This document shows positions 2,382-51,785 of a stretch of DNA of 51,900 nt, in pieces (the first letter of the stretch is position 1; the number at the start of each line of letters is the position of its first letter). The translations under genes and the position numbers were made by a program. Below the pieces are notes generated by a model. It worked only from the letters and a program-made list of their open reading frames with translations, was not told where the DNA came from and did not search any database. Location of the stretch: positions 1 to 51,900 of the forward strand of contig DUEX01000005.1 of assembly GCA_011170325.1 (NCBI GenBank). Reading direction: 5' to 3'. The DNA is from Dehalococcoidia bacterium (GTDB taxonomy: Bacteria; Chloroflexota; Dehalococcoidia; GIF9; UBA5629).

Positions 2382-3821
2382 CTAGCTACTCTCAACCGTC
2401 TGGCGAAAGATTTCGACCAGAGAAGCTATTTTTTCTCTCTTGGCGGAAGACTTCAAGCTATCTTTGTTGCCGATAAGGCAAGCTGTAGATTGAAAGAGAG
2501 TGTCCATAATTTTGAGATTATGCTTGGCTAAGGTCTTCCCGGTTTGTGTGTTTTCGATAAGCAGGTCAGCATCCTCAGGTAAGAAGGCTTCACTTGCTCC
2601 CCAAGTAGGAATCAATTTACATTGGCCAACATGGTTATCACGAAGATACTTGTCAGCGATATTTATATACTCTGAAGCTACTCTCAGCGGTGACAATCTG
2701 CTAGCTTGTATCAGTTGCTTCAAATCGTCAATATCGGCTACAGGCATATCTTGGCTAACTACCGCCACCACTTTTACTTCACCAAAGCCAAGGTCAACAA
2801 GCTCAGTAGCTGGGCTTGAGGGGAAGCGATAGAGATGGTCAAGAAGCCAGTCTTTGCCGGTTATAGCCAGGTCAAAATTCCCATTGGCTATTTGGAGCGG
2901 CATATCTTGAGGTCTGATTACTTTAGCATCAACCCAGTCCAGATTGAAAGTTGGGCGGCGATTCAGTGTGTCTCCTGAATAACCTTGCAACTGAAGTCCG
3001 GCTTTATGGAGAAATTCCGAGGTTGGTGTCTGCTGATGCCCATCAGGTAAAGCAAGCCAGACTTTTTCCTCACTGAAGCCAGGGTGGGAACCATTGGAGC
3101 TCCCGGCTAATGTTTGTTTACTTTGTGACCATGGCTTGGCTCCCATCTCAAGTCCATGGCTGAGGTAGGCTATAATCTGGCTGACATTCTTGGTTTGCCA
3201 GCTTTCTCGATTAGCAATAAGAAAGGCACTGGTAGAGAACAGAGTCTTTAGCGAGGCCAAATTCTGAGCTCTTAATTCCGATTCATCTCTTGCCCAGAGT
3301 ACGACCAGGTCGGCATTCTCTGGTGGATAGACTTCAGCAGCTCCCCACACTGGGAAAGTTTTGAACTTCCTCAACCTGAGGTTTAGAGCTGAAGCTTCTG
3401 CTAAATTGGGATACTCAGTTACTATGCGCCAGCTATCCTGTCTGGGTGGCAATTCCTGAAGGCTGGATATATCTCCATGCTGGCTAGCTGCCAAATATAG
3501 ATTGCCTTTATCATATCCTAAGTCAGCTGCCTTGACCAAGGCGCTGGCCGGGTATTTAGCTAAAAGCTCTTCAACCCAATCTAAGCTACAGATGCCCAAA
3601 TCATAGTTACCTATAGCTACTTGGATAGGGATATCTTTTTCTTGGAACATCTTAGCTGAAAGATACGGGAGTCTTGTTGACTGGAGGCGATAAGTTCGCG
3701 TTTCTTGAGCATAGTTTTCAAATCCTAAGCTTACCTCAGTTAATAAGTAGGCTGTAGCTGGTAGAAGTCTCCCCTTGGGTAAGGCTAATTTGACATAATC
3801 TATCTGGTGCCTAGTTAACAA
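2382..3821 (-). CDS. hisG: ATP phosphoribosyltransferase, double-length tandem HisG
   Basis: First enzyme of histidine synthesis, joining ATP and PRPP; the short type (about 200-220 aa) needs the HisZ subunit, which is encoded just upstream. This protein has 479 aa and two HisG-like halves, roughly residues 8-225 and 252-477, joined by a Ser/Gly-rich linker (about 228-250). The N-half keeps the ALPKGRL motif (residues 13-19) but has WARDESEL (176-183) where the PRPP loop should be. The C-half has LPDGHQ (258-263) in place of PKGRL but keeps ITGKDW (320-325) and TQTGKTL (425-431), the PRPP-binding loop. The start is a TTG one base after the hisZ stop, with GGAGG upstream. Identification as HisG is sure; how the two halves share catalysis is inference. 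Confidence 0.9.
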   Translation of the reverse strand: MLTRHQIDYVKLALPKGRLLPATAYLLTEVSLGFENYAQETRTYRLQSTRLPYLSAKMFQEKDIPIQVAIGNYDLGICSLDWVEELLAKYPASALVKAADLGYDKGNLYLAASQHGDISSLQELPPRQDSWRIVTEYPNLAEASALNLRLRKFKTFPVWGAAEVYPPENADLVVLWARDESELRAQNLASLKTLFSTSAFLIANRESWQTKNVSQIIAYLSHGLEMGAKPWSQSKQTLAGSSNGSHPGFSEEKVWLALPDGHQQTPTSEFLHKAGLQLQGYSGDTLNRRPTFNLDWVDAKVIRPQDMPLQIANGNFDLAITGKDWLLDHLYRFPSSPATELVDLGFGEVKVVAVVSQDMPVADIDDLKQLIQASRLSPLRVASEYINIADKYLRDNHVGQCKLIPTWGASEAFLPEDADLLIENTQTGKTLAKHNLKIMDTLFQSTACLIGNKDSLKSSAKREKIASLVEIFRQTVESS

Positions 3822-9256: not shown

Positions 9257-10354
9257 TTGAAAAAGCTAATATTCCCAATTCTGGTGATTTTGCTGATGAC
9301 CGCTGGCTGCATGCCTGTTGTTCCAGCGCCTGCTAATCAACTGCCGATTGCCTATATGGATTCAGTATCACCGACTAAAGTTTCCCCTGGGGGAAAGATT
9401 GCTTTCGAAGGTCATGGCACTGACCCTGATGGGACAGTAGTCGCTTATAGATGGCGGTCAAGCATAGATGGAGAACTAAGCACTTCAGCGAGTTTTGATA
9501 CCACATCTTTATCAGAAGGGACTCATACTATTTATTTTAAGGTTCAGGATAGCAGTGGAGATTGGTCAAGAGAGATTTACTGCCACATCACCGTTCTTCC
9601 TGGTGGGCCTGTCGCACCAGTCATAGACTCCTTTGATGCCAGCCCAGGAGTCATTGCTGAGGGTGAATCTTTGACGTTGAGCTGGGATGTTTCTGGTGCG
9701 GTAGCAGTCAGTATAGCTCCAGGCATAGGCAATGTTGCCCTAGCTGGGACAAGGGTGGTGTCTCCTACCAAGACCACTAGTTATACTTTGACAGCTACTA
9801 ACGAAGTTGGAAGTGTTATGTCTACAATCCAGGTTGTAGTTACTCCGGTGCCGCTGCATACTGTGGAGCTGTTTTCCGTCGCTGCGGAGGATGGTCATGT
9901 TAAGAAGAATGGAGAAACAGGTCCAGACCCAAATGTTGGCGATACTCCCTCGAACGTCGCTATGCAGGCTTTTTTGAGTTTTGATATTTCAATGATACCA
10001 ACTGGGGCTACTATTAAGTCTGCTTCTCTTGATTTGACTACTGGTGATATATTTGGTTCTCCATTTACTAGGCTTGGATGGATGCAGGTTTTCAGTGATC
10101 AGTATGGTTCATTGGACAGCGATGATTTTGTTATTGCTCCTGGATATGGAGCAATAGATACCACTCGTGTGCGGCCAACTCAACCGATCAGTTGTGCCCG
10201 CCTGGTTAGCGCCATTCAAACACAGGTCGATGATCTTAGCTCACGCTTTCAGGTACGAGTACAGTTCGAAAGGTATTCTTTTAACAATCGTGAGGCTGAC
10301 TACCTAGCATTGGGAGCGGGCAAACCCAGGCTTGTTATTGAGTACGAAGATTGA
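9257..10354 (+). CDS. Secreted lipoprotein with PKD-like, Ig-like and DNRLRE-like domains
   Basis: Surface lipoprotein of 365 aa. The N-terminus is a lipoprotein signal with lipobox LMTAGC, so Cys18 should be lipidated. Then comes a PKD/cadherin-like domain (about 29-113, with GTDPDGTVVAYRW and FKVQDSSGDWS), one bacterial Ig-like domain (about 121-197, SFDASPG ... SLTLSWDVSGA ... TSYTLTATN), and a C-terminal module (about 203-365, AFLSFDISMIPTGATIKSASLDL) resembling DNRLRE/CBM96-type beta-sandwiches. The start is TTG, preceded by GGAGGTG. No enzyme motif is present, so a role in adhesion or glycan binding is inference. It is a tandem duplicate of the gene at 10423. Confidence 0.8.
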   Translation: MKKLIFPILVILLMTAGCMPVVPAPANQLPIAYMDSVSPTKVSPGGKIAFEGHGTDPDGTVVAYRWRSSIDGELSTSASFDTTSLSEGTHTIYFKVQDSSGDWSREIYCHITVLPGGPVAPVIDSFDASPGVIAEGESLTLSWDVSGAVAVSIAPGIGNVALAGTRVVSPTKTTSYTLTATNEVGSVMSTIQVVVTPVPLHTVELFSVAAEDGHVKKNGETGPDPNVGDTPSNVAMQAFLSFDISMIPTGATIKSASLDLTTGDIFGSPFTRLGWMQVFSDQYGSLDSDDFVIAPGYGAIDTTRVRPTQPISCARLVSAIQTQVDDLSSRFQVRVQFERYSFNNREADYLALGAGKPRLVIEYED

Positions 10355-10422
10355 TGTACAATAGTGAGGGCTTTTTGTGGTGCTAGATTTCTGGCAACTT
10401 GATTCTAATTGGAGGTGAGAAG

Positions 10423-11794
10423 GTGAAAAGGTTAATATTCCCAATCTTGGTGATTTTGATGATGACTGCTGGTTGCACATGCGTCACCCCGGCTGCTAAT
10501 CAGCCACCGACTGCCTATATAGATTCGATATCGCCGGCTGAAGCTTCCCCTGGGGAAACGGTGGCTTTCAAGGGTCATGGCACTGACCCTGATGGGACAG
10601 TGGTCGCTTATAGATGGCGGTCGAGCATAGACGGTGATTTGAGCGCTATGGCAACCTTTGATATCCCGTCTTTATCGGCAGGGGAACATATCATTATATC
10701 TCAAAGTTCAAGATAATAATGGAACCTGGTCGGATGAGGTTCGAAGTCGTGTCGCTGTTTCTGGTGAAGCTGTTGCTGCACCAGTTATAATCTCTTTTAA
10801 TGCCAGCCCGGGTAGCATCACCTCTGGAGGGTCTTCGACGCTTAGCTGGAATGTTTCTGACGCCACAACGGTCAGTATAGACCGAGGAATAGGCAATGTT
10901 GCCCTAACCGGGAATAGAGCAGTATCTCTGAGCACGACCGCCACTTATACTTTGACAGCTACTAATGAAGCTGGTAGCGTTACCGCTACAGCTCAGGTGA
11001 TAGTTTCAGCAGCACCACCACCGCCACCAGCAGGTCTGCCTGTTATTAGTTCCTTCACGGCTAACCCGGGAAGTATCACGGCTGGCGATGCCTCAACATT
11101 AAGCTGGAGTGTGTCTGATGCGGCAGTAGTGACCATTGACCATGGAGTGGGTGCTGTTGCTGCTGTAGGGAGCACATCTGTCTCGCCGGCGACAACCACC
11201 AGTTATACTTTGACAGCCACCAATGCGGCTGGATGGGCCAGTGCTACTACTCAGATTATTGTCAGTGCAGCACCACCTACGGAGCACACGGTAACTATTC
11301 TACCTGTCGTCGATGAGAGCGGATATGTACGGGATACAGGTGTGCCGTGGCCTAAATTCATATATGTAGGCGATGATAATAATGACATTTCGCTTCAAGC
11401 CTTTGCGAGTTTTGATATATCCGGCATCCCGGCAGGAGCTACAATATTGAGTGTAGTAGTTGATTTTTCGGATTATAATACTATTTATGGGGATCCGTTT
11501 GGTAGTTTGGGATGTCTAAGAGTCTATCCACATGACTATGGCAGTTTAGATGGGGGTGACTACTTTGCTGGCTCCCCATTAGGGGCACTATTGAGATATT
11601 GCTCGGCAGGCGAAATAGTGGCACATAGTGATACCTATGTGAAGGACGCATTGCAGGCGAAAGTGGGAAGCTCGAGGTTTCAGGTGAGATTCCAATTTAA
11701 TGAGACGGCAACCGATGGAGCTGGGGATAATGATTTGGTAGCTTGGACATCTTCCCATTTGCCTAAGCTGATAGTTACGTATAGCGGTCCTTAA
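10423..11794 (+). pseudogene. Paralogous lipoprotein with a frameshift
   Basis: Second copy of the lipoprotein: same signal and lipobox (MMTAGC), same PKD-like domain, then two Ig-like domains instead of one (about 10770-10998 and 11025-11270) and the same DNRLRE-like C-terminal module. The GTG start at 10423 lies where the first copy has TTG, behind the same GGAGGTGA. The frame breaks near 10694-10697: removing one A from ATTATATC restores the frame so that HIIYLKVQDNNGTWS matches the first copy's HTIYFKVQDSSGDWS. Without this the product stops at 10716 after about 97 aa. The downstream frame has no further defect, so the shift is either recent or a sequencing or assembly error. Confidence 0.75.
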
Positions 11795-36241: not shown

Positions 36242-36886
36242 ATGTTGAATGAGCATGATATTCGATACGTACTCAGCCTTTCTTTGGAGGAGGCTGCTTT
36301 TGGCTGTGAAAAGATAACCAAGATAAAAACTGGTGAAGTTTGCTCTTCATGTGAGGGTTCTGGCAGAAGTTCAACGCTAGATTCAACAATATGCCCAAAG
36401 TGCCATGGTATTGGACAAATATATCAGTCTTATCCTATATCAGTACACATACCGGCTGGTGTTAAGGATGGTTATCAGCTCCATGTTAACACCAAGGATC
36501 AAGCTGGACTAAGAGGAGAAGTTTTGGAAGAGCTCGATGTAATAGTTTCTATCAGGGCGCACAAAGTTTTTCAGCGCAGTGACGATGATGTTATTTATGA
36601 GATGCCGTTAAATTTTGCTCAAGCTGCTTTAGGAGCTGAATTGATGGTGCCCACGTTGAAAGGCAGTGTCAAATTAAGAATCCCCCCTGGTACCCAGACG
36701 GGCAGGCTTTTTCGTCTCAAAGGCAAGGGCATTCCTCATCTTGATAGACGGGGTAAGGGTGACCAGTTGGTCAAGATACGAGTGGTAACGCCAACCTCAC
36801 TTGGTGAACACCAACGATGGCTCCTTGAGCGGCTAGCCAAAAGCTTATCCCAAGCTGAATTAGGAGAGAGGAAAAGCAGGCGATAG
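36242..36886 (+). CDS. DnaJ-like protein without J domain, reduced zinc finger
   Basis: A 214-aa protein equal to the substrate-binding part of DnaJ. It starts at IRYVLSLSLEEAAFGCEK (first beta-domain), then has only two of the usual four zinc motifs, C34SSC37EGSG and C51PKC54HGIG, enough for one zinc centre, followed by the C-terminal domains (VHIPAGVKDGYQL, DVIVSIRAHKVFQRSDDDVIYEMPLNFAQAALG split by variation, and LKGKGIPHL). Without the HPD-bearing J domain it cannot stimulate DnaK by itself and may hold substrates or work with a separate J protein. It has its own promoter and ends at a bidirectional terminator. Confidence 0.85.
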   Translation: MLNEHDIRYVLSLSLEEAAFGCEKITKIKTGEVCSSCEGSGRSSTLDSTICPKCHGIGQIYQSYPISVHIPAGVKDGYQLHVNTKDQAGLRGEVLEELDVIVSIRAHKVFQRSDDDVIYEMPLNFAQAALGAELMVPTLKGSVKLRIPPGTQTGRLFRLKGKGIPHLDRRGKGDQLVKIRVVTPTSLGEHQRWLLERLAKSLSQAELGERKSRR

Positions 36887-36889
36887 TAC

Positions 36890-36921
36890 AAGTGGTGATA
36901 GCTGAAGAGTTATCACCACTT
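36890..36921. terminator. Bidirectional hairpin between convergent genes
   Basis: AAGTGGTGATA (36890-36900) and TATCACCACTT (36911-36921) form a perfect 11-pair stem with a 10-base loop, between the DnaJ-like gene and the end of the transporter gene. The right arm contains the transporter's final Lys-Trp-stop codons. No strong T-tract follows on either side. Confidence 0.55.
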
Positions 36922-38187
36922 CTCTTGAGCCAGCCTGGAAGTAAGCCAGGTGCGTAGTGGTTCATCCAATACACCGACTCTGGATTCTAGCCAGCGGATG
37001 TCTCCACTCTCCAGAGCTGCTTTTGCCTCGGGAGTTAGATTGTAACCTTTAAGAGTCTGGTTGGGATTATCTGCGAGTTTGGCTAAGAAGGCGTTGTCAT
37101 CCCTGGCTTTAGCTAACACTGATATTAGAGCTTTGGTTTCTGCATCTAGGTAGCCTGCCTGTTGAGGTTGGAGACGGAGCTTACGGAAGACGTTTGTCAT
37201 CCACGGTCTAGCAGCTACCGCTTCAGCAGCACGCTCTTTACGAAGGTATATAAGCCAATACATGCTGCCTACGAAGCTGCCACCGACTATATTGCCCAGA
37301 GTAACTGGAATGAGATTACCAATAAGACCGCTGGCATTAAGGTTGGCTACTTGACTAGCAGCTACACCAGCTGCATTAAGAACCTCAGACTGTCCTGCTA
37401 TAGCTATGCCCATGGGAATGAAATACATATTCGCAACACTATGCTCAAAGCCACAAGCTACGAAAGCGGTTATAGGGAAGAGGATAGCAAATATTTTGTC
37501 AACAGTTGTACGAGCTCCAAAACAGAGCCAGACAGCTAAGCACACCAAAGCATTACATAAGATACCTCGGGCAAAAGCTGGCCAGAAAGCTAGGCTGACT
37601 TTAGCATTAGCAATCAGTAAGGCGTTAGCACCTACCTTGTAGGCATTCAGCCCCCAGAAATTGCTATAAAACACTACGAGTACCAAGAGTAACGACCCGA
37701 TGAGATTGGTGAAATAAACTATGCCCCAATTTTGAAACAATTGAGTCAGTTTGATTTTGCCACTAAATTGGCTGCCTACCATAAGAGCATTGCCGGTAAA
37801 TAACTCAGCTCCAGCTACTACCACAAGAATAAGTCCTAAGCAGAATACGACTCCGCCCAGCAGCTTGCTTAAGCCAAAGCCAATGTCGATATCAGTAGTA
37901 ACCAAGGTGCAGAACATAGCTCCTAGACCAATGAAAAATCCTGCCAGTATGCCAAGAAGCGAGATAGTGAGGATATCTCCATTTGCCTTGGTTACGCCTG
38001 TGGCTTCCATTTTGACTGCCATCTCTGCTGGTGGTCGACAATCAGTAACAGCAGATTTCTTCAGTTCCTCTAAGGCAGTTTGGAGGCGAGACACTTCAGC
38101 AATCCGGGGTTCTAAAGCTTCTAATGCCTGTGTCTCCTTGCCCGACAAATTTGAGCGCACCATAGTTCTATCCCTCGCTTTCACCAT
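36913..38187 (-). CDS. Formate/nitrite transporter family protein fused to a LigA-like C-terminal module
   Basis: Membrane transporter of the FocA/NirC family with six helices between about residues 85 and 325 (numbering from the longest start at 38211). VAGAELFTGN and CGFEHSVANMYFIPMG, holding the central pore His, are family hallmarks. The N-terminal 80 residues are an extra soluble segment, probably a coiled coil. The last 75 residues (LDAETKALISVLAKA ... NLTPEAKAALESGDIRW ... WLTSRLAQEKW) are not part of the family: they match the stand-alone protein encoded just upstream and resemble LigA-type small domains. I prefer the ATG at 38187, overlapping the previous stop in ATGGTGA; 38211, 38199 and 38163 are possible. 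Substrate is probably a small monocarboxylate or nitrite. Confidence 0.85.
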   Translation of the reverse strand: MVKARDRTMVRSNLSGKETQALEALEPRIAEVSRLQTALEELKKSAVTDCRPPAEMAVKMEATGVTKANGDILTISLLGILAGFFIGLGAMFCTLVTTDIDIGFGLSKLLGGVVFCLGLILVVVAGAELFTGNALMVGSQFSGKIKLTQLFQNWGIVYFTNLIGSLLLVLVVFYSNFWGLNAYKVGANALLIANAKVSLAFWPAFARGILCNALVCLAVWLCFGARTTVDKIFAILFPITAFVACGFEHSVANMYFIPMGIAIAGQSEVLNAAGVAASQVANLNASGLIGNLIPVTLGNIVGGSFVGSMYWLIYLRKERAAEAVAARPWMTNVFRKLRLQPQQAGYLDAETKALISVLAKARDDNAFLAKLADNPNQTLKGYNLTPEAKAALESGDIRWLESRVGVLDEPLRTWLTSRLAQEKW

Positions 38188-38507
38188 TTCTCTTGACATA
38201 ATCGGCACCACAGCCAGGTCGCTAGACGCTTGTCCAGTTTACCCACCCAGCTTTCAATCCTCTGGATATCGCCGCTGGCTAGAGCGGCTTTTTCCTCTGG
38301 GGTCAAGGTGTAATACTCTTTAAGGGCTTCGTGAGGGTTATCTGCCAAGCGTGACAGGAACTCAGGCTCGTCGGCTGCCCTAGCCAACACACTCAGTACT
38401 GCCCATCTTCCAGCCAGGCCTTCCTTTGGGACAACAGTAGGTGCTTTGAACAGATCCTCAACTGTTCTGGTAGTTCCTTCGGTCTTTCTATGAGCTAGCT
38501 TAGGCAT
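38181..38507 (-). CDS. Stand-alone LigA-like small protein
   Basis: A 108-aa soluble protein from the ATG at 38507, which has GGAGG eight bases upstream; a GTG at 38516 would lie within that site. After a basic N-terminus, its C-terminal 75 residues repeat the module at the end of the next gene: SVLARAADEPEFLSRLADNP, YTLTPEEKAALASGDI, ESWVGKLD and WCRLCQEKW. The Y-x-LT-x-EE-x-x-AL-x-x-GD pattern recalls the LigA subunit of extradiol dioxygenases and a group of RiPP-precursor-like proteins, but no catalytic LigB partner is present. Its stop overlaps the transporter start, so the two are co-translated. Function unknown; an interaction or adaptor module is plausible. Confidence 0.75.
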   Translation of the reverse strand: MPKLAHRKTEGTTRTVEDLFKAPTVVPKEGLAGRWAVLSVLARAADEPEFLSRLADNPHEALKEYYTLTPEEKAALASGDIQRIESWVGKLDKRLATWLWCRLCQEKW

Positions 38508-38701: not shown

Positions 38702-39157
38702 TTAGTCCTGTGAGGTAACACCCAGTAACTGGGTGTATGCTTGACGCAGTCTTGTTGCTACTACACGTGCTACTGCCCGGCATGCTCTACAGCCTATCTC
38801 AGGTTTGGTAAGACACAAATCGCACAGTTTCTGTCCATTAAAGGCTAGTACGCTTGTCTTCTCTATGGTCTTTGCTGTAGCAGTACAAGTATATGGCGGT
38901 ATCATAGCTGACCAACCAAAGGTCTCGAAGTTACAAACCGCTTGGACTTGACGTTGGGCCAGGGGTCCCACTTCTAGGATAATTCCTACTAGGCCTTCTT
39001 CCACTATGTAGACCTTGTCCTCCATGCGACCCTGTTTGCATATAATTGTCCCTTGCTCAAATACTTCAGATGTGCACATCTTCTCCACCACACTAAGTTG
39101 CTCATCGGTCAACTCACGAAACAAATCAGACCTTCTTAGTACCTCTAGCTTATTCAT
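38702..39157 (-). CDS. Cyclic-nucleotide-binding-domain protein lacking an HTH
   Basis: A 151-aa protein of the Crp/Fnr sensor fold. It begins LEVLRRSDLFRELTDEQL, then has the beta-roll with FEQGTIICKQGRMEDKVYIVEEGLVGI split over two strands, and the long helix (about 130-145). The winged helix that follows in Crp/Fnr regulators is missing: the protein ends ten residues after the dimer helix. The phosphate-binding cassette (usual FGE-x-AL-...-R-A-T) is altered to FETFGWSAMIPPYTCTATA. Several cysteines (CDLC, CRAC, and C47-type positions) could bind a metal or sense redox. It probably works as a sensor or partner rather than a DNA-binding regulator. It lies upstream of the LigA-like and transporter genes. 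Confidence 0.8.
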   Translation of the reverse strand: MNKLEVLRRSDLFRELTDEQLSVVEKMCTSEVFEQGTIICKQGRMEDKVYIVEEGLVGIILEVGPLAQRQVQAVCNFETFGWSAMIPPYTCTATAKTIEKTSVLAFNGQKLCDLCLTKPEIGCRACRAVARVVATRLRQAYTQLLGVTSQD

Positions 39158-39291: not shown

Positions 39292-41286
39292 TTAGCTCCT
39301 CTCCTTCACTAGGGCCTCAACCACTGATGGGTCAGCCAAGGTGCTGGTATCACCCAATTCATCAACACTCCCAGCAGCAATCTTGGTTAGTATCCTCCTC
39401 ATGATCTTACCACTTCTGGTCTTGGGTAAAGCATCAGCAAACTGGATCTCATCTGGTGTGGCTATAGGGCCGATCTCTTTACGAACATGAGCCACCAGCT
39501 CCTTCTTGAGAGCATCAGATTTCTCCACGCTAGCATTCAGAGTAACAAAAGCATATATGCCTTGCCCCTTTATCTTGTGGGGCATACCAACGACTGCAGC
39601 CTCTACTACCTTGTCATGGGATACTAGAGCGCTTTCAACTTCAGCTGTGCCTAGGCGATGACCTGATACATTGATAACATCGTCTATACGCCCCATTAAC
39701 CAGTAGTAACCATCTTCATCTATTCTGGCTCCGTCTCCGGTAGTATACACACCGGGGTACTGAACGAAGTAAGTGTTTTTGAACCTTTCTGGATCGCCAT
39801 ATACCCGCCGCATCAAACCTGGCCATGGTTTCTTGATTACCAAATAACCACCCTCATTCGCATCCGCAACAGAGCTGTCCTCCCTGAGTACTGCTAGCTC
39901 AATCCCAGGAAAAGGTAATGTTGCTGAACCTGGTTTAATAGGAACAGCCCCGGGTAGAGGACTAATCAGTATGCCACCTGTCTCTGTCTGCCACCAAGTA
40001 TCCACAATTGGGCACCTGCTCTTACCTATTACATTGTAGTACCACATCCAGGCTTCAGGATTGATAGGTTCACCGACTGTGCCCAGGATGCGTAATGAGC
40101 CTAAATTATGCTTATTTGGCCATTCGTCTCCTTCTCTCATTATCGCCCGTAGTGCGGTTGGAGCAGTGTAGAAAATATTGACCTGGTACTTTTCCACAAT
40201 GTCCCAGAATCTATCCGGATGGGGATAGCTTGGAACCCCTTCAAACATAAGACTTGTGGCCCCAAAAGCCAGAGGGCCGTAGACGATATAACTATGACCT
40301 GTCACCCATCCGATATCTGCCGTACACCAAAAGGTGTCTTCTTCCTTTACGTCAAATATCCACTTGAAGGTCTGGTAGCAGTAAAGTAGATAACCAGCTT
40401 GAGTATGGAGAACTCCCTTGGGTTTTCCCGTGCTGCCGCTCGTATACAGGATAAAGAGGGGATCCTCAGCATCCATTACCTCAGGCTCACAATATGGTTC
40501 TATATTCTCAGCAGCCATCTCATCATCCCAGCTGTAGTCACGCCCCTCTTTCATAGGTACTTCAATATCAGCCCTCTTGACTACAATCACGTCTTTCACA
40601 TCAGGGCAGGCCTCAAGGGCTTCGTCTGCGTTGTCCTTACTCCTGATAATCCTGCCGCTACGGTAGTAGCCATCAACGCAAACGAGTACCTTAGACTCAC
40701 AGTCCAACATCCTATCCCTCAACGCATCAGCACTAAAACCGCCAAAAACGACGCTATGAATAGCACCAATCCTGGCACAGGCTAGCATAGCGATTGGCAG
40801 CTCAGGAATCATGGGCAGATAAATGGATACCCGGTCGCCTTTCTTAACACCGTGCTTCTTCAATACGTTGGCAAACTTGCATACCTCACGGTGCACATCT
40901 TGATAGGTAAGGGTTCTACTATCACCAATGTCACCTTCCCAAATTAGTGCCGCTTTATTCTTTCTCCATGTTTTAAGATGCCTGTCCAAGCAGTTATAGC
41001 AAACATTGAGCTTACCTCCCAGAAACCACTCATGCTTGCCTTCCTTGAAATCTTCGACGAGCACCCTATCCCATTTCTTATACCAATCCAGCTGTTCTGC
41101 CAGCTCTCCCCAGAATTCCTCGGGGGCATCGATAGACCATTGATAAATCTGTCTATACTCGTCCAGACTCTTGATATACGCCTTTTCCCTGAGCTCTTCT
41201 GGAGGTTGGAAAAGTCTTTCCTCCTCCATCACTGAGGTAATTGCTTTTTCTCTAACCTTGGTTTCCTCAGCTACCACTGGTGTCAA
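39292..41286 (-). CDS. acs: Acetyl-CoA synthetase (AMP-forming)
   Basis: Activates acetate to acetyl-CoA through acetyl-AMP. At 664 aa it is full length. It shows [22 protein letters not shown] (P-loop-like A3 motif, broken by variation), WWQTETGGI (acetyl-AMP contacts), the hinge and [16 protein letters not shown], and [15 protein letters not shown] near the end, where the second Lys is the classic acetylation site controlled by sirtuins. The start is TTG at 41286 with AAAGGAGG eight bases before it. It is flanked on both sides by copies of the intergenic repeat, with the transporter group downstream and a two-component system divergent upstream, consistent with acetate or one-carbon acid use under two-component control. 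Confidence 0.95.
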
Positions 41287-41686: not shown

Positions 41687-42376
41687 GTGAAGTCGAAGAC
41701 CACGGTCTTGATTGTTGATGACCATCCGTTGTTGCGTGAAGCGTTGCGCCAGGTATTTTCTAATCAGAAAGACATGGATGTAGTAGGTGAGGCAGGTGAT
41801 GGTGAAGAAGCCATCACCTTGGTTTCCCAATTGAAGCCGGATATTGTGGTGATAGATATTATGATGCCCAAGCTTGATGGTATTGAAGCTAGTAAGCAGA
41901 TTAAGAAGATTGCTCCAAATACAGCTATATTAATTCTCACTGCCTATGATGATGATAATTATGTGTTGGGGTTGCTTGAGGCTGGAGCGGCAGGTTACTT
42001 ACTGAAGAGTGCTCGAGGGCAAGACTTAGTAGAGGCTATACGGGCTATACAAACTGGTGAGTCAGTGCTTCATCCTAAAATCATCGAGAAGCTGCTCAAG
42101 CGTGCTGTGAGTAAATCAGCTGGGATCGAGGGACCCAAGGCAAGCGAACTCCTAAGTGATCGGGAGATGGAGATATTGAAGCTGCTGGCTACGGGTAGGA
42201 GCAACAAACAGATAGCTGAAAAGTTATGTCTCAGTCTACGCACTGTTAAGGCTCATATATCCAATATTTTTGCAAAGATGAATGTAGCCTCACGTAGTGA
42301 AGCCCTCGTTGAAGCTCTAAAATTGGGACTGGTTACTTTGAGAGATACTGAGCAAGAGGAGAATCTGGGAAGCTAG
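41687..42376 (+). CDS. NarL/LuxR-family response regulator
   Basis: A 229-aa regulator. The receiver domain (1-120) has the acidic pair D11-D12, phosphate acceptor D57 in IVVIDIMMPKLDG, T85 and K107. The C-terminal HTH (about 155-220) has LSDREMEILKLLATGRSNKQIA and LSLRTVKAHISNIFAKM, both typical LuxR-type. The start is GTG, with TTGGAG upstream. The kinase gene follows after 51 bases. The divergent acs gene and the intergenic repeat next to it are natural target candidates, but this is inference. Confidence 0.92.
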   Translation: MKSKTTVLIVDDHPLLREALRQVFSNQKDMDVVGEAGDGEEAITLVSQLKPDIVVIDIMMPKLDGIEASKQIKKIAPNTAILILTAYDDDNYVLGLLEAGAAGYLLKSARGQDLVEAIRAIQTGESVLHPKIIEKLLKRAVSKSAGIEGPKASELLSDREMEILKLLATGRSNKQIAEKLCLSLRTVKAHISNIFAKMNVASRSEALVEALKLGLVTLRDTEQEENLGS

Positions 42377-42427: not shown

Positions 42428-43882
42428 ATGTCCACGGCGATGTCGAGTAGATGGCGAAATTTTCATATCTGGTTCATAATCCTTCTCTTTTTAATCTTGA
42501 CTCTGTCTCATTACAATGAACTTCTGCTTGAAATACCTATTGTAGACAAATTATCGTTTGCTTTGTTCTTTGGCTTATCACGACATGTTGTAGAGCGATT
42601 CATCTACTTCCTGCTTATAGCCTATGCCAGTTGGGTGTTAGGAGTAAAAAGTGGTGGTGCTACATGGCTGGCATCTGCTATGGCCATGTTACCAAGGGCG
42701 ATGTTTATTTCTTCTAGCTCCAGAGATGCCTTGGTCGAGAGCATCGCTGCACTTATTATCGGTGGTTTGAGTATCGCGTTTATTGAGGTACGCCGGAGGT
42801 ATCAGCGGCAACAAGAGGAGTTGAAGGGAATCGCAACGGCCTTGAGATCATCCCAGGAAGACTATCAAGAGCTTTTTACTAATGCCAGCGACGCTATCTG
42901 GGTTCATGACCTTGAAGGTAACATGACTATAGTCAATAAAGCCACTGAGGCACTCACGGGCTATTCCCCAAGTGAATTAATCGGTAGAAATGTTTCCCAG
43001 TTTCTTTCCCCAGAGGCGTTACTTCTAGCTAGAGAAGTGAAAGCTAAACTGTTAGAAGGTGAGGCTATAGAACAGCGCTATGAGCAACGTATAATTAGGA
43101 AAGATAGAACAGAGGCAATTGTTGAATTGGCTACCCGCCTAATCAAGGTCGACAGTGAGCCAAATGCCTTTCAGAATATTGCTCGTGATGTAACTGAGGA
43201 AAGAAGATTGAGGGACAGTCTCCACATTCAAATCCATAAGAACCTCATGGCTCAGGAAGAAGAACGGAAACGCATTGCTCGCGAACTCCATGACGATATT
43301 GCCCAGTCTATATTGCTACTATCGCGTCGGCTCGATATTCTAATGTCCATGGCTGACCGCAAGGTGTCAAAAGCAGTAGTAGGTGAGCTGGAGCAGTTGC
43401 ATGGCATAACTGATGAGGTTTACAAAGACTTACAGCGCTATGCCCGAGACTTGAGGCCGAGCATCTTGGATCAGATGGGACTGGTGGCAGCTCTGAATTG
43501 GTTGGCTGAGGAAGCTAGCGAGGAACTGGGAATCAAAGTTGAACTGAAAGCGAGCACAATGCCTTCGCTTTCTTCGGAAACGGAGCTAGTCATGTTCCGC
43601 ATTGCTCAGGAGGCTTTGAATAACGTCCGGAAACATGCTGAAGCCTCTGAGGTCAGTATTACAGTGGAGTCAGGTGACGGTAATGTGAAGATGACTATCA
43701 CGGATAATGGTAGGGGTTTTTCTATGCCTAGATTGACTGGGGATCTAGTTAGGGAAGGGAAACTCGGTGTATTGGGGATGGAGGAGCGAGCACGTTTGAT
43801 CGGAGGTAACTTGGAAATAAAGTCTGAACCGGGTAAAGGTACGACTATAATCGCAGAAGCACCGTGTAAAGGCAACCCATAG
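42428..43882 (+). CDS. Membrane histidine kinase with PAS domain, NarX/DesK type
   Basis: A 484-aa sensor kinase. Residues about 14-28, 57-75, 78-95 and 103-120 are membrane segments, with a short coiled coil to 140. A PAS domain covers about 143-260 (QELFTNASDAIWVHD, TGYSPSELIGRNVSQFL). The HisKA_3 dimerisation domain has ERKRIARELHDDIAQSI with H288 as phosphorylated residue, and the ATPase domain has EALNNVRKHAEAS (N box), TDNGRGF and GKLGVLGMEERARLIGG. It pairs with the response regulator just upstream. The PAS domain may bind a cofactor or ligand; nothing in the sequence names the signal. Confidence 0.92.
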   Translation: MSTAMSSRWRNFHIWFIILLFLILTLSHYNELLLEIPIVDKLSFALFFGLSRHVVERFIYFLLIAYASWVLGVKSGGATWLASAMAMLPRAMFISSSSRDALVESIAALIIGGLSIAFIEVRRRYQRQQEELKGIATALRSSQEDYQELFTNASDAIWVHDLEGNMTIVNKATEALTGYSPSELIGRNVSQFLSPEALLLAREVKAKLLEGEAIEQRYEQRIIRKDRTEAIVELATRLIKVDSEPNAFQNIARDVTEERRLRDSLHIQIHKNLMAQEEERKRIARELHDDIAQSILLLSRRLDILMSMADRKVSKAVVGELEQLHGITDEVYKDLQRYARDLRPSILDQMGLVAALNWLAEEASEELGIKVELKASTMPSLSSETELVMFRIAQEALNNVRKHAEASEVSITVESGDGNVKMTITDNGRGFSMPRLTGDLVREGKLGVLGMEERARLIGGNLEIKSEPGKGTTIIAEAPCKGNP

Positions 43883-50114: not shown

Positions 50115-51785
50115 ATGCGTCGTCGGAAAGTCAGTAGCAATATTGCTCTTATAGGTTTCTCGGCTACCGGTAAGTCAATTGTAGCTAAGAAGGTAGCTGA
50201 ATACATGAACTGGAACTTCATAGATACCGATGATGAAATAGTCAGGTTTAGTGGCAAAGCTATCCCCGAAATCTTTGAGCAAGACGGCGAGGACAAGTTC
50301 AGGCAGCTAGAACGTCAAGCATTGAGACAGGCCTGCCAGAAGGGCAATGTAGTTATTGCTACCGGAGGTGGGGCTATCCTCGACCCTAGAAATCAGGAAT
50401 TGCTTCTCAAAACCAGCACGGTCGTTTGCCTGGAAGCCAGGGCGGAGACAATTTACCAGCGTCTATTACAAGACACCCTTTATTCTTCCAACCCTGTAGT
50501 TCGCCCGCTTCTTGCTGGTGATAACCCGTTGGAGCGTATTGGGCAGCTTAAAGCTTTTCGGCAGCCTTATTATGCTATGGCTGAGTGGACAGTTCATACT
50601 GATAACTTGACTCTTGAAGAGGTAAGCCAAGAGGTGATAAAAGGCTGGCGATATGCGAACCGCCACCGCAAAGATGAGGCACAATCTGCGAAAGCTAACT
50701 TGGCTTGCGAAGTAAAAACAGCTACCGGACCTTATCCTGTATTTGTTGGCTGGGGTTTACTGGACAAGTTAGAGGAAAAAATGAAGCAGGCAGGTTTGTC
50801 AGGCGTAGCCAATGTCATCAGCGATGAAACTGTTTTTTCTGTGTATGGTACCCAGGTCAGGAGAGCACTAGAAAGTGGTGGCTTTATAGTCAATTACTGC
50901 TTAGTGCCACCTGGTGAAGCCACGAAGAATATCGACCAAGCAGTCGAAATCTATGACTTCCTCATCGAGCATCGTGCAGAAAGAAGTGATGTAATCGTTG
51001 CCCTAGGTGGTGGCATGGTTGGTGACCTAGCTGGATTTGTGGCGGCGACCTACTTACGTGGGCTATCTTGGGTGCAAGTTCCTACTAGCCTTGTCGGCAT
51101 GGCCGATGCTAGCATTGGGGGCAAGGTCGCTATTGACCATTCCCGAGGGAAAAATCTGATTGGTGCTTTTTATCAGCCGCGTCTTGTTCTAGCTGATGTT
51201 CAAACTTTGACTACTTTACCCCAGCGAGAATTGACCTCAGGTTGGGCTGAGATCATCAAACACGGTTTGATCCTCGATTCTGTTTTTTTTGAGTTTCTCG
51301 AAGCTAATGTTGAAAACCTAATCAGGTTGAGGCCTGAGATTACTTCGAAAGTGATTGCTCGTAGCGCTAGTATCAAAGCTCAAGTCGTCGCTGAAGATGA
51401 GAGGGAAGTTGGGAAACGCATTATCTTAAACTATGGACACACTATAGCTCACGGACTTGAAGCAGCTAGTAAATACGAACATTTTCTCCACGGTGAGGCG
51501 GTAGCTGTTGGTATGATCGGAGCAGCTAAGCTCAGCCACCGACTGGGACTTTTATCGCAAAGTGCGGTGGAACGCCAAAAAGCACTTTTGGAGAAATTCC
51601 ATTTACCCATTGATTGCTCCGGAGTAAATCTAGCTGATGTGCTTACTGCTATGGAAGTGGATAAGAAAGTGCGAAGTAAAGTAATCCAGTGGGTCTTGCT
51701 CGAAGACATTGGCAAGGCAGTAGTACACGGCGATGTACCGGCAGAAGAAGTCATTAACGTTCTTCGAGAAGTGATAAAATCTTGA
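50115..51785 (+). CDS. aroKB: Bifunctional shikimate kinase / 3-dehydroquinate synthase
   Basis: One 556-aa protein carrying two steps of the shikimate pathway. Residues about 8-170 are shikimate kinase: P-loop GFSATGKS (14-21), FIDTDDEIV, FRQLERQAL and ATGGGAI. Residues about 195-556 are dehydroquinate synthase: VALGGGMVGDLAGFVAATYLRG (NAD loop), QVPTSLVGMADASIGGK, GWAEIIKHG and LNYGHTIAHGLE with the metal-binding His. The two enzymes are not successive in the pathway. Such AroK-AroB fusions are known, for example in Thermotoga. The order is kinase first. Its stop overlaps the TTG start of the next gene. Confidence 0.94.
   Translation: MRRRKVSSNIALIGFSATGKSIVAKKVAEYMNWNFIDTDDEIVRFSGKAIPEIFEQDGEDKFRQLERQALRQACQKGNVVIATGGGAILDPRNQELLLKTSTVVCLEARAETIYQRLLQDTLYSSNPVVRPLLAGDNPLERIGQLKAFRQPYYAMAEWTVHTDNLTLEEVSQEVIKGWRYANRHRKDEAQSAKANLACEVKTATGPYPVFVGWGLLDKLEEKMKQAGLSGVANVISDETVFSVYGTQVRRALESGGFIVNYCLVPPGEATKNIDQAVEIYDFLIEHRAERSDVIVALGGGMVGDLAGFVAATYLRGLSWVQVPTSLVGMADASIGGKVAIDHSRGKNLIGAFYQPRLVLADVQTLTTLPQRELTSGWAEIIKHGLILDSVFFEFLEANVENLIRLRPEITSKVIARSASIKAQVVAEDEREVGKRIILNYGHTIAHGLEAASKYEHFLHGEAVAVGMIGAAKLSHRLGLLSQSAVERQKALLEKFHLPIDCSGVNLADVLTAMEVDKKVRSKVIQWVLLEDIGKAVVHGDVPAEEVINVLREVIKS

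Follow-up and report, generated by a model that had tools for sequence, protein, structure and literature searches.

A Y-L-R/K motif behind the last transmembrane helix is described for formate-type FNT channels, and both termini of FocA lie on the cytoplasmic side of the membrane (PMC5572259). The E. coli channel FocA has a soluble partner, PflB, which attaches to its cytoplasmic N-terminal helix and presumably gates it (PMC11841067). How formate channels are controlled outside this FocA-PflB pair is an open question, and a survey of prokaryotic FNT proteins found no conserved residue in either the N- or the C-terminal regions (PMC5525234). The LigA-like fold, on the other side of the present comparison, has so far been associated chiefly with leaders of RiPPs and subunits of dioxygenases. 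In borosin systems, a LigA-like domain binds the enzyme, either fused to it (OphMA) or as a free leader (SonA) (PMC8429565).

Here we describe a locus in which the two meet. The window, i.e., the whole 51,900-nucleotide stretch of DNA that was analysed, belongs to a Dehalococcoidia draft genome of 1.8 Mb (92% complete) and encodes a FocA-like channel with a LigA-like module at its C-terminus next to a small protein carrying the same module. With FocA channels (PMC11841067, PMC5572259) the window channel has in common the FNT fold, the equivalents of Thr91 and His209, the Y-L-R motif and the expectation of a soluble partner on the cytoplasmic side. However, FocA-type channels have short C-termini and receive PflB at the N-terminal helix, whereas the window channel extends past Y-L-R into a folded domain of 75 residues that also exists as a free protein. 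The module shares its LigA-like domain with the Os1348 / Franean1_4349 'NHLP clan' (NF038399, PF14407), and the window free copy passes NF038399. Unlike those proteins, it comes without a core peptide or a recognised maturase and forms the end of FNT, FdhA and receiver proteins, with a conserved helix running to QEKW. Borosin SonA and OphMA likewise use a LigA-like helical bundle as a binding domain in free or fused form, but the window locus has no recognised methyltransferase or core peptide, and the partners of its module are formate proteins. LigA subunits and the LigA domain of DesB resemble the module in overall fold, whereas sequence similarity is weak and no LigB gene was recognised near the window pair. 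The formate dehydrogenase that bears the module in other genomes is of the same type, a NuoF-like protein plus FdhA, as the NAD-dependent FdhAB of deep-sea Dehalococcoidia (PMC5736913), which belong to the same bacterial class; the passages found in that report mention neither a C-terminal module nor an adjacent small protein.

Nor is such a module mentioned in the passages found in papers on formate metabolism in Chloroflexi, and a literature search for Os1348/NHLP proteins together with formate dehydrogenase found nothing. The sequence-only reading of the window knew of no described FNT transporter with such a tail; we found none in the literature searched, and the FNT survey cited above agrees. 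The parts belong to known families, and their combination appears to be undescribed in the literature searched.

Results

The gene pair and the FocA-like channel

Both open reading frames singled out by the sequence-only reading were confirmed on the minus strand (Table 1), and the close matches of the window in our searches were Dehalococcoidia assemblies. The free-module frame (38507-38184, stop codon at 38181) starts with ATG behind GGAGGTG. The channel gene stops at 36913 and most likely starts at ATG 38163, which follows a GAGGGA-like site and lies 17 nt beyond the free-module stop. A start-site comparison placed an in-frame channel start 0-38 nt past the upstream stop in most relatives, and we chose ATG 38163, giving a channel of 416 residues, because its spacing matches. 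The gene overlap noted in the earlier reading arises only if the channel is started at the upstream GTG (38211), and it is probably an artefact of start choice.

Table 1 Features of the module locus in the window
Feature	Position	Strand	Evidence
C-terminal LigA-like module of the channel, residues 342-416, ends QEKW	36916..37140	-	module HMM
Flexible linker, residues 310-341	37141..37236	-	pLDDT and identity among relatives
FNT transmembrane core, residues 41-309	37237..38043	-	3kcu alignment; AlphaFold2 model, Foldseek FocA matches
FocA-like FNT channel (predicted formate channel) with C-terminal module, 416 aa	36913..38163	-	PF01226, phmmer, start spacing
Free LigA-like module protein, 108 aa (module = residues 34-108)	38181..38507	-	NF038399 and AlphaFold2 model
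Cyclic-nucleotide-binding-domain protein, no recognised DNA-binding domain	38702..39157	-	PF00027 E 9e-10
Acetyl-CoA synthetase (ACS), same operon direction	39292..41286	-	PF00501, PF16177
NarL-type response regulator, divergent from operon	41687..42376	+	PF00072, PF00196
PAS / HisKA_3 histidine kinase	42428..43882	+	PF00989, PF07730, PF02518

Over their last ~75 residues, the two proteins can be aligned with a single one-residue gap (YY in the free copy, one Y in the tail), at 61% identity and with an E-value of 5e-22 in a search inside their own genome. The local score of 213 compares with a mean of 31 (sd 4.7, maximum 52) over 500 shuffles, which bears out the likeness noticed in the sequence-only reading. 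The LTPE-KAAL-SGDI block and the QEKW ending are visible in the alignment as common to both copies.

The channel matches PF01226 (Form_Nir_trans) with 241 bits against a cut-off of 34.6 (E 1e-71), and its best solved relatives in phmmer are the Vibrio/E. coli FocA structures 3kly (E 5e-64) and 3kcu (E 2e-59). Matches to the FocA structures stop by residue 309, ahead of the tail, and the core of the channel model matches E. coli FocA in Foldseek. Alignment with 3kcu places Thr123 and His241 at the FocA pore residues Thr91 and His209, and the Y-L-R motif at residues 306-308, past the last transmembrane helix. The cut-off of the FocA equivalog TIGR04060 was missed (243.1 versus 290.1 bits), and for this reason we call the protein FocA-like rather than FocA and regard it as a predicted formate transporter. 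Beyond the core, the linker has a pLDDT of about 40 over much of its length in the AlphaFold2 model, and its identity among close relatives is 26-70%, compared with 82-90% in the core. The tail is modelled as separately folded helices (pLDDT about 84), and the module HMM match runs to the channel C-terminus. Because the termini of FocA face the cytoplasm, the tail is expected on that side; by analogy with FocA, the channel would be a pentamer with its tails on the cytoplasmic face.

Downstream of the channel, an 11-bp hairpin (36890-36921) lies between two convergent genes and spans the last two codons and the stop of the channel gene; it is weak compared with shuffled sequences (z -1.8). The convergent gene (36242-36886) encodes a DnaJ C-terminal domain and a partial zinc finger without a J domain.

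Family and fold of the module

The label LigA-like, given earlier to the small protein, was upheld by the match of the free copy to NF038399 (Os1348 family NHLP clan protein), which reaches 44.1 bits against a cut-off of 40; the channel tail scores 29.9 bits, below the cut-off. The match to PF14407 (Franean1_4349-type RiPP precursors) is 26.3 bits and does not reach the cut-off of 48. Compared with solved structures, a module profile matched Os1348 (6lk7), the borosin precursor SonA and the C-terminal binding domain of OphMA with E-values from 0.0035 to 0.3. The AlphaFold2 model of the free copy, a moderate one with pLDDT of about 70-79 over the module part, gave VIA Z scores of 7.2-7.6 with DesB/LigA, 5.7 with OphMA and 4.9 with Os1348. 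The Foldseek E-values of the module model are weak (0.9-2), and the fold assignment therefore leans on the profile matches and the VIA Z scores together. On these grounds, the module is predicted to have the fold of LigA, Os1348 and the borosin-binding domain.

In all three settings, free, FNT and FDH, conservation of the module extends to the final residue, and the ending is nearly always QEKW; in the channel tails of genome G160 and locus L103 this ending is lost and the sequence has drifted. Among the genes around the window pair and in two operons scanned by family search, no RiPP maturase was recognised. Near the pair we also recognised no LigB dioxygenase gene, and the genes around it (ACS, cNMP-binding protein, response regulator, histidine kinase, DnaJ-like protein) include no borosin alpha-N-methyltransferase. 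Franean1_4349-like proteins elsewhere in the phylum carry a short variable tail after the domain. At a separate locus (L158:1562-14657, genome G433), five consecutive large proteins carry a related leader of LigA-like type close to the N-terminus and, after it, RLSKSSLF-type motifs. This array resembles a distinct cluster of RiPP-like or secreted proteins.

Distribution of the module

We searched 393 genomes of the class and found the module in 28 of them; all module-bearing sequences come from uncultivated assemblies. The FNT genes in this sample comprise 12 with a tail and about 40 without, some of the latter being fragments. The tail is thus uncommon among FNT proteins in the class, which supports the sequence-only reading. 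A module gene lies directly upstream of all 12 tailed FNTs and of none of the ~40 untailed ones (Fisher 5e-12, uncorrected for relatedness); the untailed genes have no module in their vicinity either.

A scan of one genome per species yielded 40 loci, mostly from Dehalococcoidia. Selected free and FDH-tail forms served as queries, so that the scan may under-sample tailed FNTs that lack a free copy; the class search, with its 12 versus about 40 FNT genes, is independent of that selection. Single module loci, some of them degenerate, occurred in assemblies labelled Desulfobacterales, Syntrophaceae, Thermoleophilia, Deltaproteobacteria and Clostridia. The contig of the Desulfobacterales locus may have been misassigned, as the nearest relatives of its module are from Dehalococcoidia.

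The module on formate dehydrogenase and receiver proteins

The module also ends the catalytic subunit (FdhA) of an NAD-type formate dehydrogenase. The tailed FdhA is complete, covering positions 1-671 of the 672 in TIGR01591 before the linker and tail, and its operon has the order free module, NuoE-like, NuoF-like and FdhA with tail. Some operons have an in-frame TGA in FdhA, as expected for selenocysteine. At one further locus (L134:9990-10216), the free-module gene ahead of NuoE-NuoF contains one in-frame TAG and could be a pseudogene, an assembly error or a gene with a recoded stop. In genome G368, the FDH tail lacks its first half and no free module was seen upstream. A few free modules also stand beside untailed formate dehydrogenases (L131, L132, L092).

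Untailed members of the formate dehydrogenase family occur in the genomes whose channel is tailed. An FTHFS match was found in 24 of the 28 genomes checked. Both tailed forms may coexist only in G160 within the class sample, where the assignment is uncertain and the FDH contig truncated. Genome G662, a one-contig chromosome, has a tailed channel and two free modules and no tailed FDH.

Receiver-domain proteins likewise end in the module. At L101, a receiver-module protein replaces the free copy directly before the tailed channel, and at L127 two receivers plus the module lie upstream of a histidine kinase. These fusions tie the module to two-component signalling. The forms on formate dehydrogenase and on receivers had been missed by the sequence-only reading; with them, what looked like an odd transporter becomes one bearer of a shared part of formate handling. 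As far as the sequences tell, the module has a gene of its own and is also built onto a predicted formate channel or a formate dehydrogenase in some uncultivated deep-environment bacteria.

Two other arrangements were observed. A receiver is fused to the N-terminus of an acetyl-CoA synthetase (L094:6256-8673, genome G381), right behind a free module and ahead of an acetate transporter-like gene. A module remnant, LANGNLEKIESWVGDLGEHLETWINVGLAQGKW, lies in an apparent hydrogenase/Hyp cluster beside a 775-aa receiver-domain protein (L173:7702-7800, genome G134) and may mark a third kind of partner.

Operon context and partner exchange

Among the tailed-FNT loci with enough sequence, a module gene is immediately upstream in 17/17, one of these being the receiver-module fusion; a response regulator is near in all 17 and a histidine kinase in 16. 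Where enough upstream sequence was available for tailed-FDH loci, the module gene came first in 10/10 and kinase plus regulator were found in 7. The window fits this pattern, with kinase and NarL-type regulator divergent from ACS, the cNMP-binding protein, the free module and the channel. According to the operon maps, ACS recurs in tailed-FNT operons, and the cyclic-nucleotide-binding protein in those of several relatives.

A conserved site in genus g15, which belongs to the same order, has the gene arrangement HK-RR-free module-X-MetF-HK-RR-RR-HdrA. In G134 and G112, position X holds NuoE-NuoF-FdhA, the last of these tailed; in G188 and G364 it holds a tailed channel. The downstream flank consists of MetF, a cNMP-binding kinase, two receivers and HdrA-like proteins, and the flanking proteins are 67-87% identical between G134 and G188. 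G188 keeps an untailed FdhA that is 62-65% identical to the tailed FdhAs. Free module and two-component system are thus the constant part of the site, whereas the formate protein that bears the tag can be exchanged.

Evolution and selection

In a tree of 75 module sequences, the FNT tails fall on one branch (81/93), the FDH tails form a weakly supported group, and most free copies lie outside both. The window tail neighbours other FNT tails and the window free copy other free copies; free copies group largely by taxon, whatever their partner. A duplication at this locus, for which the earlier reading had proposed a phylogeny of tail versus free copy, is contradicted by the grouping of the tails of all FNTs, and we rejected a local origin of the tail from the neighbouring gene. 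As the window copies group apart, the duplication is old.

Purifying selection acts on the tail much as it does on the channel core: dN/dS of the tail is 0.03-0.06, and values for tail and free module are mostly 0.03-0.07, like those of the core. Unlike these parts, the linker and the N-terminus of the free protein drift. A core-corrected mirror-tree test of co-evolution between free copy and adjacent tail gave no support (partial r -0.24, 14 pairs).

Discussion

The identity of the module, its free and fused forms, its association with two-component operons, the selection on the tail and the partner swap are observed. They lead us to a tentative reading, held at somewhat less than even confidence, in which the module is a LigA-fold docking or regulatory domain that, with the free copy and the two-component system, controls a formate-handling protein. 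The helical module would mark this protein, a FocA-like channel in some genomes and an NAD-type FDH in others. On the channel, five copies would hang from the pentamer on flexible linkers at the cytoplasmic side, where they could bind the co-expressed free module and/or module-bearing receiver proteins. Formate import or, alternatively, CO2/formate conversion would then be tuned to the state of the cell by the complex itself and by the PAS histidine kinase/response regulator pair. We infer both the binding of the free copy by the tail and an effect of this binding on flux. Gating by exchange with the free copy, as suggested in the sequence-only reading, would be one such effect, and the co-evolution test lent it no support.

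This docking reading draws on the pairing of a module gene with tailed FNTs (12/12) and tailed FDHs (10/10), on the partner swap and the selection on the tail, and on G368, where a damaged FDH tail coincides with no free module. The same fold binds, fused or free, in borosin pathways (PMC8429565), which also makes the docking site suggested by the sequence-only reading plausible, and the control of FocA by PflB in E. coli offers a precedent. We count against it that tail and free copy gave no co-evolution signal, that free modules next to untailed FDHs indicate that the tail is not always needed, and that QEKW is lost in the channel tails of G160 and L103. A bolder version, possible but in our view rather doubtful, is a homotypic adaptor system in which the module on free proteins, receivers, channel and FDH couples formate entry to two-component signalling post-translationally, the tagged protein being exchangeable and the adaptor retained.

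The same observations could be explained differently. The channel or enzyme might be the input of a sensor whose tail holds or frees the module according to formate flux, the freed module prompting an expression change through the kinase and regulator while transport itself is ungated. We consider this unlikely: the response regulator near 17/17 tailed-FNT loci, the kinase near 16, the presence of both at 7/10 tailed-FDH loci and the existence of receiver-module fusions fit it well, but the kinases carry PAS domains and could sense alone, a module fused to a kinase was never seen, and three tailed-FDH loci have no kinase next door. Low probability also attaches to a passive tail, serving oligomerisation, stability or localisation by binding something outside the operon, with the free copy as a paralogue that has a separate job. 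Such independence would agree with the lack of co-evolution and with free copies beside untailed FDHs, but it sits poorly with the near-perfect gene pairing, the persistence of the free copy when the partner is exchanged and the combined loss of tail and free copy in G368.

That channel and FDH bear the same module also brings to mind direct channelling, in which the channel tail docks the FDH tail and imported formate is passed to the enzyme. We judge this very unlikely, as channel and FDH alternate at one site, only G160, with its truncated FDH contig, may have both tailed proteins, and G662 combines a tailed channel with two free modules and no tailed FDH. As a general mechanism, docking between the two tails was rejected, because most genomes have one tailed class only. 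We see hardly any chance of a RiPP connection, in which the free copy would serve as precursor peptide and the tail would be a leader, either relict or decoy. The free copy does pass the 'NHLP clan' cut-off of NF038399, and the phylum has Franean1_4349-like proteins with a short variable tail elsewhere, but conservation of the module runs to its very end, and enzymes and a channel carry it. With no variable core after the domain and no maturase recognised beside the window pair or in the two scanned operons, we rejected the RiPP precursor as a candidate.

Returning to docking and control, the fused and free module suggests a part for formate traffic that appears to be undescribed in the literature searched. 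It would be a compact, portable domain, present on a channel, on FDH and free, with a two-component system adjoining. Its hosts are uncultivated Dehalococcoidia with formate and Wood-Ljungdahl genes, in which a fold of RiPP leaders and dioxygenase subunits appears to be reused on proteins of central metabolism. A short set of constructs, the channel with and without tail and with and without free copy, makes the proposal testable.

Other features of the window

Three further loci stand apart from the module. A 479-aa ORF at 2382-3821 resembles, by eye, two tandem HisG (ATP phosphoribosyltransferase) domains and lies beside a HisZ-like protein. At 10399-11794, two overlapping ORFs (105 and 378 aa) are jointly like the lipoprotein-like protein at 9257-10354, likely representing a frameshift or a broken duplicate. 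Finally, a 556-aa ORF at 50115-51785 reads like a fusion of shikimate kinase and 3-dehydroquinate synthase.
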